Assembly (NCBI GenBank): GCA_036940085.1
Contig: JALLBK010000143.1
Location: forward strand, 1 to 51,990
DNA: 51,990 nt
Source of the DNA: Discostella pseudostelligera
Taxonomy: Eukaryota > Bacillariophyta > Thalassiosirophyceae > Thalassiosirales > Thalassiosiraceae
Direction: 5' to 3'
Numbering within the stretch: the first letter of the stretch is position 1; the number at the start of each line of letters is the position of its first letter. Position numbers and translations under genes: made by a program. This document shows, piece after piece, positions 14,559-23,800 of the stretch. The notes beneath the pieces are model-generated. The model searched no databases, had not been told where the DNA came from, and worked only from the letters and a program-made list of their open reading frames with translations.

Positions 14559-17470
14559 TCATTCCGACTCATCATCGGACCACACAATGCCCTCCTGCAC
14601 TTCATCCTCCTCTTTCAGTGCATTGATATTATTCAGGTCTTCCTGATTTACGACTGCCTTCTTCTTTTTCTTCATTGTTTTCTTTGGTTGCGGCTTCGGT
14701 TCCATTTCATCACTACTATCTCCTTCATCTTCGTTCTCATCGTTGTTCCTTTTCCGCTTATTCTTTGCGTCCTTCTTCTTAGATGAATCAGCTACCTGAT
14801 TGTTTTCCTTTCTCAAAGGCTGAGTTGCAGCCTCCAACCGTTTCTCCTTTGCCACTGCCGACTCATACCGGTCTCTCATGCTAGGTACATTGACAGGCTT
14901 TAGAGCCTCCAGACGACGGACCTCCTTTGGTGCATCTACTAATGTCGACCGACCATTGATGGCAAAGGCGGAGTACTTCTCACAGAGCTCAATGGTACCC
15001 TTAGAGTATGCGCGCCAGGTTCCGTTGGAGATTTCCTTATTGAACTGGTGTTGCACGGAATAGTTTGCACTGTCAGCAATCATTGTTGAACCAAAGAAAG
15101 AGCAAAGCCTCATCAGAACACCACACTTACTTTTCTCAACCTCTGTAGTATTGTAAAGGTAAACTCTGGAAATCCAGGCGAATACCGATACATATCAACC
15201 TCTCTGTTCAGCAAAACAAACGTCTCCTTTAGAACGCTGTCAAGTTGTTCCATCGTACGTAAAGTGTTCTCCTTCGGCAGCTTTAAGATCAAAGGAAGAC
15301 GCAACCCTCGCACCGTTGTCGCAGATTTGTTCTTCGATCCCTTTCCAGCATCGCGGAGAGGCTTCATTCCCACCTCCTTCATGTCCAATATACCCATCAG
15401 CAGACTGGTAGTCGGAATAAAAGTCTCGGTAGAGGCAGCCAACTGTTGCAATAGACGAACACAGTGCAGCCGTAGCGGGACGAATAATGCGGTAGGGACA
15501 AGCCGGCATACTCCAAAGATAATTTCTGTCATCGGATACAAGAGCGATCGCAGAAGGTTAGCCTCTTCATCCTTGCCAAAGCCCCCTCCCAGCTTGCTCA
15601 TCGATCCATCTTCCCCGTCCGAATTTTCACTTGTTTTATTATTCTTTCCACAAGCAGCACATAACACCGCCACCCACAACTTCAAACAGTGCACATACTG
15701 CCAACAGCATACGACACTCTTGCTCTCGGGAGTTTGCTTCATCATTGCCGAACGTAAATGCAATGCCAATTGACGAATGTAAATGAATGCATGCTGGTAG
15801 GCACTTGCATAATCCAGGGTATACAATTCCACGATACAATTCCCCATAAACGTCAATGTCGGGAGTACACTGGTAACATTGGACGCGGTACCAAACTTGG
15901 ATCGTTTTGCATAACTCAAGTACGTGAGCTTCAAACAGTCCTCAATAAATGGGTAAGGTTGCGTAATGGCGAGTTGTCGAACACGCAAGAATGCATGCAG
16001 TCGAACGGTATTGTATTCCTCGGACGTATCCAGTGGTGCACACCATAATTGTACACATGCCTTGAGATACAGCTTGGCAAGTTTGGTGTACGCAGTAAAA
16101 TACGGAATGTATTTGGCCAATGACGACAATACAAATTGCAATAGCTTGGCTTCTTTTCCAGCCTCCGAGAGAATGTGTAGTGTCGATTTGAGGAATGATT
16201 CGATTAGTGGACGTATTGCTTGCCAACGGGGTGATTTGGCAAGTTTCTTGGGATGTAATGGTTTGTTCTCGTCGAAAGTCACGGATGATTCCTTGTCCTT
16301 TGGAGTAGCATCGTCGCCAGAAGATTCCTCGTCATCGTCATCATCATCGTCGTCGTCCGGCTCATCCTTCAACAGATGGTGATAAAATTCCTCATGACAC
16401 TGTACCAAACAAACTGCCATTACTCGATCAAACACCACAGGACTTGTGAATTGAAACTCTTTCTTCTTCCTCTTCCCAATTCCTGCACCAGCACCATTTT
16501 CTTCGTCACTATCCTCCTCCTCTCCCTTATCTTGATCTTGCTGATTGGCATCACTCAAATGACACGCAGTCCTATACGCTGAAATAATACGTTTCAACCC
16601 CTTGATGGAATGGGCGGCGAATGCACCCTGTTCCAATTGTTGCAATCGTTGTGGTGTGAGTAGAAATTTATTCTCGGCGGCCTTCTGCTGTTTCTTGAAA
16701 TGAGATTGCATTGCATACTTCTCCTCCTCTTCGTTTTCATCCGATAAAATGTCGTTGGCTATACCATCCATGGCATCTTCATCTTGCATATAATCCTCTC
16801 CCTCTTCATCCATGTCATCATCCTCATCGTCTTCATCATCATCATCATCATCATCGCCAAATTCAAGCAACGAGCTCTCATTCTCTTTCAAGTATTTATG
16901 AAATTCTGGATCCTTCGAACTTAATTGTTCGAGCTGACGTTTGAGTCGCTGTTCGGATGCCTCGATATCTTCTTCCTCGGAGCCGAGGGAGGCGTAGGAG
17001 TCGACACTGCTCTCATCGTCATCTTCACGGTCATCCTCGCCTTTTTCATCTGCATCATCACCTATGCCATTGCCCATGACTTCGGCGCCACCGTCGTAAT
17101 CATCTTCTTTCTCAATCTCGCCATCACTATTATCGCTCCATTCATCTTCTCCCCCCATCACCGCCTTCTCAAAGAAGGAATCCATATCCAACTGTCCCAA
17201 ATTATCGGCATTCAAAAAATCATGTGAGTGCCGTTCTTGTTCTGCTTTTTCGGCATCTTCCTTGCGGGATGAAGTTGCACTAGTAGAAGCAGCAGATCCC
17301 TTGCCACCTTTTTCCTTCTTGGCACCACCACCGCCACTACTGCCGCCACTGCGCTTCATCGTAAGTTTACCCTTCTTGGCCAATTTGGTACCCTTCTTTT
17401 CGAGTGCCTTGGCGGCGCCACCGCCTGTTTTGGTGTTGAATTTACGTGATCGTTTCGTTGTTTTTACCAT
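14559..17470 (-). CDS. NOC2: Nucleolar complex protein 2 (NOC2), ribosome biogenesis
   Basis: NOC2 forms complexes with NOC1 and NOC3 that move 60S pre-ribosomes from nucleolus to nucleoplasm. Two exons: 17470-15131 and 15044-14559. The 86-bp intron uses a GTAAGT donor; the acceptor is the CAG before 15044, because the nearer CAG puts the frame into a stop. The joined product is 941 residues. N-terminus is Lys-rich with a nucleolar-type basic stretch; residues to about 300 carry long Asp/Glu runs; the conserved helical core includes YHHLLKDEP, LWCAPLD, TCHLSD, NCIVELYTLDYASAYQHAF, IRQLALHLR, YPMTEIIFGVCRLVPTALF, PLRLHCVRLLQQLAASTETF and GFPEFTFTILQRLRK|FNKEIS at the splice. The tail is Lys/Asp-rich. 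The gene is divergent from the F1-alpha-like gene. Assignment is firm. Confidence 0.9.
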
Positions 17471-18165: not shown

Positions 18166-20672
18166 ATGAAGCTACAGCTGGCTTCTCCGTTCCTTGCGGC
18201 AGCATTCTCATTCTCATTTCCTTCTCAAACCAGCGCGTTTCTTACTAATCCGTCCTCATCATGGCAGAAGAGCATGACAGCACCCATCCTATCATCATCA
18301 TTATATACTAACCAGCGGCGATTCGTATCATCGTCCATGAAGGAGCTTTCCGTCGCTGCTGCCGCCTTTGACGAATCTACCACCACTGCTTCCGAAACAG
18401 ATACTTCGTCAGAAAACATGATTGTCAAGGGAGAAGTACTTTCCTATTACACATCAAGTTGCAGTAGTGGATCAGGAGCAACACTGGTCGCGGTGAAAAT
18501 TTGTGAAGAAGATTTACTATCCTCTCCCATGAGCACTCCCATTACATCCTTGTCAGCATCTGGTTTGAGTGCAGGAAGTAGTAGTGGTGGAAGTGTGCCC
18601 ATGGCTGGCAGTTTAGAACGACCAATTGGGTTAGAAAATGCATTGTTTTCCAAGAGCAGCAGTACAATACCGTCAAAGGATGCGGTCAAAAGCAGTTTGA
18701 AGAGGGTAATCGGTACGTTTCTATGCATAGCTACTATTCCCCCATTTGTTGACTCCATTTTCATTCATTGCTGGCCTACAACATCATTTTCTTTGCACAC
18801 ATTTATCTCCTTCCAGCCGATGGAGACCCAACTGGACGAACAGTATCCTTCTCCAATGGTTCCAAAGGCATAGTCTTGGCGCATCGTCATCCAATCTCGT
18901 TTGTGTTGATTGATGCCTCCACAGTTGCAGTGGATGGATATACTGTAGGCGATACATGCAGCATCTCCACTGAATTGGCATCACTTACTCCATCCTCCAT
19001 ACCTCCTGGTTCTACTGTCGATTATTTGGGTAGACATGTTTGTCTCCTCAATGATGGAAGTGTTAGCCGATCGTTGCCCAAGGCAGCATCAGCATCGTCC
19101 TCAACCAATGGTGCCGCCGCCGATGGACAATTGTTCGATATGTGGACAACGAAATTGAATGACGTTTCACCCATTATATCCTCCTCCTCCATCCTAACTG
19201 GACAATCAAAGGATGAACAACGTCCTATATTTGTACCAATTCCAAAAATATCAGATATTGGATTGATTGATTCACCATTGGTTACGGGAATCACTGCAAT
19301 TGATGCCTTGACTCCAATTGGATTGGGACAGAATATGTTGGTCATTGCCGAGGGAGAGGATGATGACCATGAAATGAGTGGAAAAGTGAATAAGCGAGGC
19401 TGGATGTTGAATTTACTACGAAATGTGGTGGAAAATAACAAGAAGTACGATGGTACTATGAGATGTTATTACTGTTTGACATCTGGTGATTCGAAAGTTC
19501 GGACAAGCGTATGGAATGGCATTTTGGAAGCTGGTATACAAGAGGATATTGTCACGTTGTTCTCCAATCATGATTCGAGTGCATCATCGACCAACAACAA
19601 TAAGGATGATGCCAGCTTAGTAGCCGCCGAAGCCGTGGCCGTGGCTGCCGCGGCATGTACGCTCGGAGAACATCATGCATTAACTACCGGTGGTGATTCT
19701 GTAGTCATCATCGATGACATCAACTTACACAAGTCACTTTGGGATATGACAACTCAAGAACTAGTCAAGGTATACGGAGTCAATGCCGTCGTTGAGGCTG
19801 ATCTCAATGGTGGGAGTTCGTCAGAGATGCGAGGTTTCTTCTCGGGGTTGATCCAACGTGCCGCGCGGTTCAATGTGAAGAAGGGCGGGGGGAGTGTGAC
19901 ATTGATACTGTTGTCGACGCTTCCCAATCTTGATGAGGATACAATCCACGACGATACTGAGGATGAGCCAACGTTCGATGCCTCAGATTTTGATTCCATG
20001 TCTGAGAAGATAAAGGATAGAATTGCCATGCTCGTCAAGGCTAAGGTGCCATTGACACCAACCAACTTGCGAAAAATCAAATTGCCAGTGCCCAAACCAT
20101 CGGAGAATGAAAATGTCAAAAGACTAGCACTTCAACACGTGGAAGATTTAATCAGTATGAGTGATGGTCAAATTTGGTTCGATGTGAAGCAAGATCGTAG
20201 TCCACCACTTGACCCATCACGTAGTTTGACACGCGTCGGAGTGGGTGCTGACACTCGGAATTGTCGAGCGGATGCACCCGCCTTACGGTCGGTGGTTGGA
20301 AGCTTACGTTTTGAATTTCAGCAAGCAACAGACATGATGGCTCCTAATTCCGAGGAGGGGGTAGGGAAGAATTTGAAGCAAGCGCAACGGCGGGATGCCT
20401 TCTTACTAGCCATGCACCAAGAACCGAATGAGGGTCGGAAATTATCTCAGGAATGCGTGTTGCTGCTTGCTGCATCCCGTGGGCATTTAGATGCAGTCAT
20501 AGCAGATGGAGGGATGCCGGGTACAATGAAAGGAAAAGAAACTTTGGCTGGCATGTTACAATATCTTCAAAACGAGGCTCGTGAGATAATGCAATCCATT
20601 GATGAAACGTTAGATTTGAGCTTCGATGAAAGGAACGTACTGGATGAGGCGATTCAAGAGTACTTCTCATGA
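18166..20672 (+). CDS. Divergent F1-ATPase alpha-subunit-like protein, probably plastid-targeted
   Basis: Two exons: 18166-18712 and 18817-20672 (GTACGT donor, CCTTCCAG acceptor, phase 1); 2403 nt, 800 residues. The N-terminus MKLQLASPFLAAAFSFSF followed by SQTSAFLTN has the look of a diatom plastid presequence (signal peptide, then Ser-Ala-Phe). The rest follows ATP synthase alpha: beta-barrel piece VSFSNGSKGIVL; nucleotide-domain start LVTGITAIDALTPIGLGQNM; VVIIDDINLHKSLWDMT in place of the Walker B strand; GLIQRAARFNVKKGGGS; ISMSDGQIWFD; and SLTRVGVGAD, which keeps the arginine of the alpha SRVGS motif. The Walker A motif is not intact: the expected GDRQTGKT is replaced by an acidic EGEDDDHEMSGK. 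ATP hydrolysis is unlikely. A role in assembling or regulating a plastid ATP synthase is a guess. In diatoms ordinary plastid atpA is plastid-encoded, so this is an additional relative. Confidence 0.75.
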
Positions 20673-20859: not shown

Positions 20860-23800
20860 TCATCGCAAGAAGAAGTAGTGCTTTTTGACAACGTAAATTC
20901 CAGCTGTACATGCTATCAAGAGTGAGAATGCGAGGCAATTGACGATGTCACCGGACGAAACGTCAAAGGTGTAAATCATCAGGTCGCCTACACCACGAGC
21001 GATCGCCGACTCGAGAATGACCACGAACGAGTTATCAATGGTAAATTTCTTTATCTGCCGAGGAGTGCTTTGGACTTTTGACATGAGAGTTAATGTTACA
21101 CTCTCGAGTGTCACCATACTCAAATATATCATCGTGAAGCCCAACCAGTATTGTGCAATACCGATACATCCATCGTAGTAGTATGTCTGAGAGCCATTCT
21201 TCAGCCTGCCACTGTAAATCGATAGAACAAACATGAAGATAGATTCATAGTTTACCAACAGCAGCAACCCAAGTCTTGCCAAACGAAGTGCGGTCTTTGT
21301 TACATCACGTTCTGATAAGTTCCTCTTGGTTGCGAGAGAGAGGTTCACGGGGAAGATTACTGAAAACAATGTGAGAATAACCATTGAGAATAACCATTGA
21401 GAATAACCATGCGTTTCTGAACATGACAATGTAAGACGACGAACCTGATGCCATTATTCCCACGACAACACCGGACCTTGCTCCTGACCAATCGAAGTAC
21501 CTAGATGTTATAGTTCCACACGAAGATAGAAGAATTTCATTCGCCATTTTCACTACAAATAAAATGGCCACAGTTGTTGGAAAGGCAACATTTGAGAACA
21601 TCAATTGACGAACATTTGCGATGCACTCGGAATAGTTCAGTTGGTTATGATGCTTGACAGTCTTCCTAGACATAGCTTGTAATTTCTCAAACGTTCCATC
21701 ACCATGCCCGATTTTTGTTGATACAAATTGATTCGATCGCTTTGATGAATCATGTTCTTCGTTGTCCGAATCGAAATCCTCCTCTTGCGTCGTGAGGTAC
21801 TGAAGTTCGTGAGATTTGATTGGCTCGTGCTTTTTTCTTTTGGTTTCCGGTATGTCGAAGAAGAACAGCATTCCAAATAAATGGGCGCTCCAAGCAACTG
21901 CCATGACGTAGCCGACACTTTCTAGTGAGAATAGTCCCCGTTGTCTGAATGGAAAAAAGGACGGCGCCAGTCGATATGGTGGAGATGATGGAGTATCAGA
22001 GCCAAGTGAAGTCGACGATGGTAAAGACTGAATTGATTCTGTCAGAAGTGGAATCATGAAAGTTGGCGTTTCCTCTATCTCAATACCAGCAATTGAACCG
22101 AGAACAATCGAAAGTGGGATAATGATCATTGTCATCATCGCAAGCCACGCAACTTCAGTGTTGATGCTTTCACGCAACATAATAGTAGATAAAAGCTGTC
22201 GGTTAAGGAGTTCGGCTGAACCGAATCCAATCAGTAACCGCCCAGCGATTGCCATTCCAAACGACGACTTTTTTATCGCATGTGAAAACAAAATGTTCCC
22301 CACCAAAGCAAAGATACTGCACAGAGTAAGTGGAAGACGGAAGTCAGCAATTTCTAGCCGTCTTTTCTGAAGAGATTTTCGTTTTGATGCAAATAATGAT
22401 TGAAATACTAGCCCCAATATTGATGAAAAATTTGCAGCACCGATCAAAACTGCAGCAGAGCAACTTGAATCAAGAGATTTGGAAAACAAATGGGCTGTCG
22501 GGACAATGCAGTAATAGTTCGCCTTTTAACGAGATTCAAGTTAGGCAGATCAGTTAAAAAGTCGACAGTTGTACAATACCAATTTGTCTCACCAAGTATA
22601 ATATCGTGGAAGCAGCATTGAGTCGGACTACGTTCAGGAATCCAGTTGCTCGATCTGGTGGTATCCCATTCTCACCCCATGTGGAGAGTGGAATTATGGA
22701 CATGGAGGAAGCAACATGGCGCCGGAATCGAGTCCTATTTAATGTAGTAAGATTGTAGCCCTTTGAGCAAGCGGCGAGTGTTGCCACCATGACATCGCCG
22801 ATGCAGTCATATGCACCCCACGTTTTAAGAGATGCGTAAAATCTATCCAAATCCAAGGAATAAATAGCATCGGGTTGATAAGAGCGCAAGAAATCTAGAG
22901 TTTCCCGAGAACACCCCTCTAGTCCATCGTCAGCCACATTTGGTCCAGTGCTAATCATGAAAAGCCTCGATGAAAAGTGCTCGAATGGAATGGACTTCAA
23001 GCGAGCTGCTTCTCGAAGGCCGAAAATCGAAGATACAACGAATTGTAGGCGCGTAATGGGTGTGTTTGCACATGGATTCTCATCATCATGAGAAGCAACT
23101 GTCGAGTCATCGTCACCACGCAAGCATTGCCCGCTTATTCGGTTCATCGCTGCATCTCTAAGGCGAGATCTTGTGTGATGGCTAGGGGGTGGCGATTCTG
23201 GCTGCGTAACAATTGCTTGTTCGAATTCTTTCCCCTTGTTTGCCGATGCAAAACCTAAGCCCAGCAGGACTGATCTACTTTGAGACGCTTCAAAATCAGT
23301 AAGAGCGATAGCCAAAGACGATGAAACTGTCTCCATTGTGGTTGAGTTCGCGATGTGCTGAATTTTTGTGTCGTATGTCCCCATGATGTAACCGCCAAAT
23401 CTTTGTGGCTCCGCATCCCGACGAGACAAATACATCAATTGACGTTGTCTGCCATTATAAATTCCTTTTGTTTCCGTAGATAATCGCCGGTAGTAGCCCC
23501 CAAGCATTCTGTTAGCTAGAAATCGATCGTGTTTTTTGCAAATCTTCCTGACTGCAATGACATTGACGCATATGTATTTCAACAAGTGCAATAGCTCGAC
23601 ACCAACCGCAGTGTATGCATCCACTTCATCAACAGCTGAAAGGAGAGAAAAGTCCTCGCCCAAGAAGTCGGCCTTCTGAAAAAGAGGCTTGCTGATTCTC
23701 AACCGGTCGCGCAGTACTAGTTGTTTTTTGGTTTCGGACGAGTCTATCTTTCGCAATCGACGGTTGCCATTGTCGCCAAATCCATCTTCTTGCTCATCTG

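Follow-up and report, generated by a model that had tools for sequence, protein, structure and literature searches.

Can a protein built like the alpha subunit of F1-ATPase serve the chloroplast ATP synthase after losing the loop with which alpha holds its nucleotide? The question is raised by a gene at positions 18,166 to 20,672 of contig JALLBK010000143.1 from the diatom Discostella pseudostelligera; the window analysed is the whole stretch of 51,990 nucleotides, taken from a 23-megabase assembly of 963 contigs. The spliced gene joins two exons into one clean open frame of 800 residues, whose product we call pseudo-alpha; its features are on the forward strand. It belongs to a family with the alpha fold, an eroded Walker A motif, a constant arginine finger, a conserved extra stretch and a plastid-type presequence. 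Our preferred reading, to which we assign a probability of roughly 45% on sequence and predicted structure, is that this nucleus-encoded protein would enter the plastid and dock on the beta subunit of chloroplast F1 (CF1) through its retained arginine face, to serve in assembly or regulation and not as part of the completed rotor.

An alpha fold with an eroded nucleotide site

Structure comparison traces the alpha fold along the entire chain, from the barrel to the C-terminal domain, in agreement with the initial annotation, which had taken the protein for an F1 alpha relative. The AlphaFold2 model (predicted local distance difference test, pLDDT, 86.2; predicted template modelling score, pTM, 0.87) contains a low-confidence linker after the barrel. 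Identity to alpha is about 22% in the structural alignment, and the structure matches listed were F1 or ATP synthase entries only, beyond which other folds may stand. Scores against the established families fell under their cut-offs, both for Pfam (PF00006, 21.6 against 29.5; PF00306, 17.8 against 27) and for the curated alpha models (PRK13343, 68.5 against 554; TIGR00962, 53.8 against 484.45), and a Pfam scan at E <= 10 returned ATP-synt_ab and ATP-synt_ab_C only, with no ATP11 domain. As to a closer kinship with F1 beta or the A and B chains of V/A-type enzymes, the family-library matches were all to alpha, alpha-like or export ATPases, yet in a rooted tree the family branches off outside the alphas and its branch is long. 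Chance similarity was rejected on the combined family-library, protein-search and structure matches and the invariant columns of the family. We regard pseudo-alpha as an alpha-superfamily paralogue that fails several of the defining tests of an orthodox alpha.

Motif counts were taken from 177 family members aligned with 15 alphas, spinach included; some of these members are open reading frame (ORF) fragments of intron-bearing genes and some are near-duplicates, so that the counts are not independent. The loss of Walker A, already proposed from the sequence, was confirmed, and the corrected gene model restores no P-loop. The pattern GxxxxGK[ST] is intact in a single member (P0084, GQKGTGKS), nearly intact in P0139 (GANGTGKR) and missing from the query, and the GDRQTGKT residues are present in 15 of 15 alphas; mean conservation over the P-loop columns 171-177 is 0.41 in the family against 1.00 in the alphas. 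In the query, TGITAIDALTPIG (19,284-19,322) runs up to the former Walker A EGEDDDHEMSGKVNKR (19,350-19,397), an expanded acidic loop in which Gly has become Asn and Thr has become Arg, with Lys at the Lys position. The acidic stretch ending in SGK, which the initial annotation had singled out, is present but proved to be a lineage detail, the family-wide feature being Arg at the Walker A Thr position (171/177). A Lys still aligns with that of Walker A in 60/177, the query's group included. The expanded acidic loop ending in NKR is typical of the Thalassiosira group, to which the query belongs; elsewhere the loop takes the form GQDTGVGQR (a Chaetoceros-like group) or GHDxxDMRR (pennates). A tree of 107 sequences, built before the pennates joined the set, has P0084 close to the base of one of its two principal clades (support 0.846), and on this single sequence the intact loop may be ancestral and have been eroded along separate lines, P0084 being a natural intermediate or a reversal.

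The neighbouring positions have fared differently; the roles of the finger, adenine-site and catalytic-Glu positions are those we take them to have in F1 structures. The arginine-finger segment SRSLTRVGVGAD (20,217-20,252, with Arg 655) carries its Arg in 177/177 members and 15/15 alphas, the query reading TRVG for SRVG. A looser pattern count over 200 proteins, 193 of them readable, found the Walker A pattern once and the finger pattern in 178, leaving 15 without the latter. The Walker B-like strand VVIIDDINLHKSLWD (19,701-19,745) keeps its first Asp in 177/177 and its second in 95/177. At the adenine-site glutamines, within the C-terminal domain segment at 20,382-20,492, the first Gln is kept (175/177) and the second is lost (replaced in at least 174/177), and Gln stands at the position of beta's catalytic Glu in 20/177. 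The VISITDGQ stretch reaches a conservation of 0.99 in the family. The orthodox alpha is non-catalytic in every F1: its arginine finger belongs to the active site of the neighbouring beta, and its own Walker A forms a non-catalytic site. The loss of Walker A therefore removes the non-catalytic nucleotide site and not catalysis, and the earlier description of the protein as "catalytically dead" drew the wrong contrast.

An extra stretch at 19,902-20,147 adds about 60 residues where alpha has ETQAGDVSAYIPT. The spacing from GSxT to DLISMSDGQ is 22 residues in each of the 15 alphas against a median of 82 (74-94) in the 177 members and 85 in the query, and the motif D[VI]S.Y[IV]P of the DVSAYIPTN loop occurs in 14/15 alphas against 0/177 members. 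We take the loop so replaced to face the central shaft, or gamma, in F1. The stretch is itself conserved, with a consensus around DF, KIK.RI..LV and IPLT..NLRKIQIPVP. A second insertion places about 9 extra residues ahead of SSEMR, within VEADLNGGSSSEMRGFFSGLIQRAARFN (19,791-19,874), relative to its alpha counterpart. The model of a pennate member has no ordered helix before the barrel (residues 1-67 with pLDDT under 50, first strand at 87-96), where spinach alpha has MATIRADEISKIIRERIEGY.

Gene structure and predicted targeting

Exon 1 (18,166-18,712) encodes the presequence, a low-complexity linker and the first strands of the N-terminal beta-barrel, and the spliced frame leaves it at a GT donor at 18,713. 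Removal of the 104-base, phase 1 intron (18,713-18,816, GTACGT..CAG) joins a single frame of 800 codons, and exon 2 (18,817-20,672) supplies the rest of the barrel, the nucleotide-binding fold, the C-terminal helical domain and the stop codon. In several relatives, P0002, P0011 and P0029 among them, the ORF likewise starts just upstream of the counterpart of exon 2 (ADGDxTGR). The intron bears out the earlier assignment to the nucleus, and a splicing correction that would restore the P-loop was rejected, since the loop is internal to exon 2 and its frame is clean.

Residues 1-25 (18,166-18,240) form, by eye, a signal peptide with a SAF motif, read as SQTSA|F. The full-length members open in the same manner: a hydrophobic signal peptide closes with AF, replaced by AW in Pseudo-nitzschia and Nitzschia (by eye). 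Of 62 members, 40 passed a presequence filter based on an A-[FW] motif followed by an acid-poor region, 35 of them with F and 5 with W; among 1240 shuffled N-termini, 65 did so. Signal peptide, motif and filter together uphold the plastid-type presequence seen by the initial annotation, and pseudo-alpha is most likely imported into the plastid. A fair positive control is the genome's own nuclear gamma of CF1 type (L089), whose open frame has MKFLCVAAAALATASAF at an internal Met. Two nuclear gamma genes were observed in this genome (L089 1141-2436 and L090 1552-2331; also L088), one of them with a plastid-type presequence.

Diatoms carry atpA in the plastid genome; PsaA/PsaB were not found in the assembly, which indicates that the plastid genome is absent from it. 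The ordinary alpha of the same genome (L001, contig C594), which has the GDRQTGKT loop, clusters with alphas of alphaproteobacteria; a separate gene thus already fills the mitochondrial role. The possibility that pseudo-alpha is the ordinary mitochondrial alpha was rejected, the GDRQTGKT alpha being a separate intact gene. One ATP12 gene was found in the genome.

Around the locus, a divergently oriented neighbour at 15,113-17,470 on the reverse strand encodes a Noc2-family protein (PF03715, E 9.8e-65). On the other side, also on the reverse strand, 20,860-22,489 holds two overlapping open frames, of 394 and 189 residues, that resemble a multi-pass membrane protein and may be one intron-containing gene; a Pfam scan of the 394-residue frame gave no match.

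Spread and origin of the family

The first protein search returned 67 proteins, namely the query itself, 63 family members and 3 bacterial-type alphas, and the 63 members share 53-88% identity with the query protein over the aligned part. A 16-sequence profile gave 292 matches and a profile led by a distant member 246; the matches listed were 67 of 67 for the first search and the best 120 of 292 and the best 120 of 246 for the profiles, the candidates scored being those that shared most words. The family set holds 196 proteins, query included; the query's own P0001 and three bacterial alphas had been excluded beforehand, and dropping 19 proteins under 540 residues left the 177 counted above. 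Many columns are invariant across 61 diverse members, and family-specific invariant residues lie outside the alpha motifs, for example K306, W309, D310 and R339 (exon 2 model numbering).

Among the matches listed, the organism was readable for 12 family members, all diatoms: Thalassiosira sp. AJA248-18, T. punctigera, T. exigua, Conticribra weissflogii, Chaetoceros sp. GSL56, Attheya sp., Thalassionema nitzschioides, four Pseudo-nitzschia species and Nitzschia inconspicua. The taxa looked up represent three diatom classes, both centric and pennate; the closest relatives of the query among the matches listed group with Thalassiosira-type diatoms, and no entry named Phaeodactylum was among them. 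We make no claim of restriction to diatoms, because non-diatom relatives could stand beyond the matches listed. Several members are transcripts of the Marine Microbial Eukaryote Transcriptome Sequencing Project (MMETSP), so the gene is transcribed.

In a tree rooted on beta, with 33 family members and 15 alphas and no cyanobacterial alpha, the family is one clade (support 100, branch 1.91) outside all 15 alphas, a placement that could be due to long-branch attraction. Approximately unbiased (AU) tests, from which beta was left out and which used trees from fast searches, rejected none of the groupings: plastid alpha (p 0.141), mitochondrial alpha (0.475), alphaproteobacteria plus mitochondrial alpha (0.0966) or P0065 (0.58), the last being excluded by the resampling of estimated log-likelihoods (RELL) and expected likelihood weight (ELW) measures. 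An origin from plastid, mitochondrial or another alpha would be compatible with the AU tests. A placement within the mitochondrial alphas had been named in advance as evidence against the initial annotation; the beta-rooted tree speaks against such a placement, whereas without beta it is not rejected. In P0065 and P0066, proteins of 654 residues, a complete alpha whose P-loop is intact is fused to a delta/OSCP domain (PF00213). A scan of viral contigs gave 22 stretches matching the pattern, none of which was confirmed as a relative.

Proposed role and comparison with known systems

The family has dropped Walker A but never the finger, the pattern to be expected of a protein that goes on contacting beta at its catalytic face with no need of a nucleotide. 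Since assembly factors that bind beta at its catalytic site are known, we favour a protein that caps beta in the assembly or control of CF1. Like alpha, though without nucleotide, pseudo-alpha would bind CF1 beta at its catalytic face, with beta either free or in a partly assembled complex, and would hold, order or keep inactive the beta or alpha-beta intermediates, while the conserved extra stretch at the putative gamma-facing loop might either exclude or recruit gamma. A more specific version, which we consider doubtful though worth stating, makes the protein a nucleotide-free alpha mimic of diatoms that caps CF1 beta via its finger face and carries a new gamma-facing module, the Thr-to-Arg exchange standing in for the Mg-nucleotide and locking the bound shape.

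Several observations weigh against capping of beta in the plastid. The presequence filter fails in 22 of 62 members, though many of the 22 show AF or AW by eye, and some members pass it at a site other than the AF/AW seen by eye, the query's best being Phe 16 and not Phe 25. The finger segment has a conservation of 0.82, which is not exceptional (13% of windows of equal length reach the same), the Walker B stretch has 0.69 (44% of such windows), and the conserved finger Arg might be structural. The Lys in 60/177, query included, and the GTGK of P0084 and P0139 may point to residual binding of nucleotide or another ligand. The name CGLD11 suggests to us that diatoms presumably possess this factor too. 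ATP11 was not found in the query's own genome, a result that is uninformative because the control genomes were silent as well.

Among the other explanations, a scaffold that descends from alpha but has taken up a task outside ATP synthase, in the plastid or the periplastid space, is unlikely but deserves serious attention: it accords with the very long branch from all alphas and with the family-specific invariant residues, and it is opposed by the finger Arg and first Walker B Asp kept in 177/177, though these may be structural. Rather improbable, in our view, is a variant structural subunit: some CF1 complexes would then hold pseudo-alpha in one of their alpha positions, leaving fewer non-catalytic sites per hexamer. 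The alpha fold from barrel to C-terminal domain would suit it; the identity of about 22%, the extra residues that replace D[VI]S.Y[IV]P in the loop presumed to face the shaft, and the unordered N-terminus of the pennate model would not. A solved structure of Bacillus PS3 F1 (8ygv) bears "non-catalytic site depleted" in its title, and hence the loss of Walker A alone is no bar to a place in the hexamer; a variant subunit is less likely than a beta-capping factor because of the added residues and the lack of an N-terminal helix.

An inhibitor, or a dark or redox regulator, that would slow ATP hydrolysis by binding to assembled CF1 has a slightly smaller chance again. The retained finger, the acidic variable loops and the extra residues at the supposed gamma-facing position are consistent with it, but a protein of alpha size must displace alpha or find an exposed beta face. 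That the protein is mitochondrial is very improbable given the signal peptide with its AF/AW motif and the separate ordinary alpha; the AU result that allows a mitochondrial grouping bears on origin, not on location. Least probable is a decayed or artefactual gene, for which only the lost Walker A would speak, and which is refuted by conservation: an 800-codon frame after one clean intron, the identity to 63 members and the many invariant columns.

These observations suggest that pseudo-alpha points to an undescribed helper or regulator of chloroplast ATP synthase. Diatoms account for a large share of ocean photosynthesis; we found little literature on the assembly and control of their plastid ATP synthase, and no description of a diatom pseudo-alpha by title or abstract start, a search that other gene names would escape. 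Plastid ATPase subunits are retained in the non-photosynthetic Nitzschia putrida (PMC9054022). Pseudo-alpha, a conserved alpha look-alike of plastid type that lacks an orthodox nucleotide site, offers a concrete knock-out target in centric and pennate diatoms, and it tests whether the beta-completing face of alpha can act alone as a chaperone or regulator. Database labels of the members include "F0F1 ATP synthase subunit alpha" and "F-type H+-transporting ATPase subunit alpha" as well as "hypothetical protein", and such labels would mislead metabolic reconstructions.

Compared with F1 alpha (AtpA; TIGR00962, PRK13343, PF00006/PF00306), pseudo-alpha falls below the family cut-offs, lacks Walker A and the second adenine-site Gln, keeps the Gln at the catalytic-Glu position in few members, has an extra stretch for ETQAGDVSAYIPT and is nuclear with a plastid-type presequence. 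The alpha-like families MMOB1660 and MSC_0619, presumably from mycoplasmas, are also divergent alpha relatives in other use, and match pseudo-alpha weakly (49.4 and 20.6 bits against cut-offs of 600 and 520). The alpha of Bacillus PS3 F1 (8ygv, by its title) likewise has no working non-catalytic site, but it is engineered and otherwise orthodox, whereas pseudo-alpha is natural, family-wide and furnished with extra stretches.

To our knowledge, Atp11p, BFA3/CGLD11 and BFA1 are not alpha paralogues, and pseudo-alpha differs from the Atp11 family in having no ATP11 match in the Pfam scan. Atp11p is described as binding beta at the pre-catalytic site and BFA1 and BFA3 as binding CF1 beta II-2, all serving assembly (PMC7607909), and CGLD11/BFA3 as binding the hydrophobic catalytic site of beta (PMC9806626). 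On these descriptions, the one thing that pseudo-alpha would share with the three is its proposed target, beta's face at the catalytic site (PMC7607909, PMC9806626). If such capping is true, pseudo-alpha would stand for a class of factors, distinct from Atp11, BFA and CGL160, in which a duplicated subunit has been turned to the assembly or control of ATP synthase.
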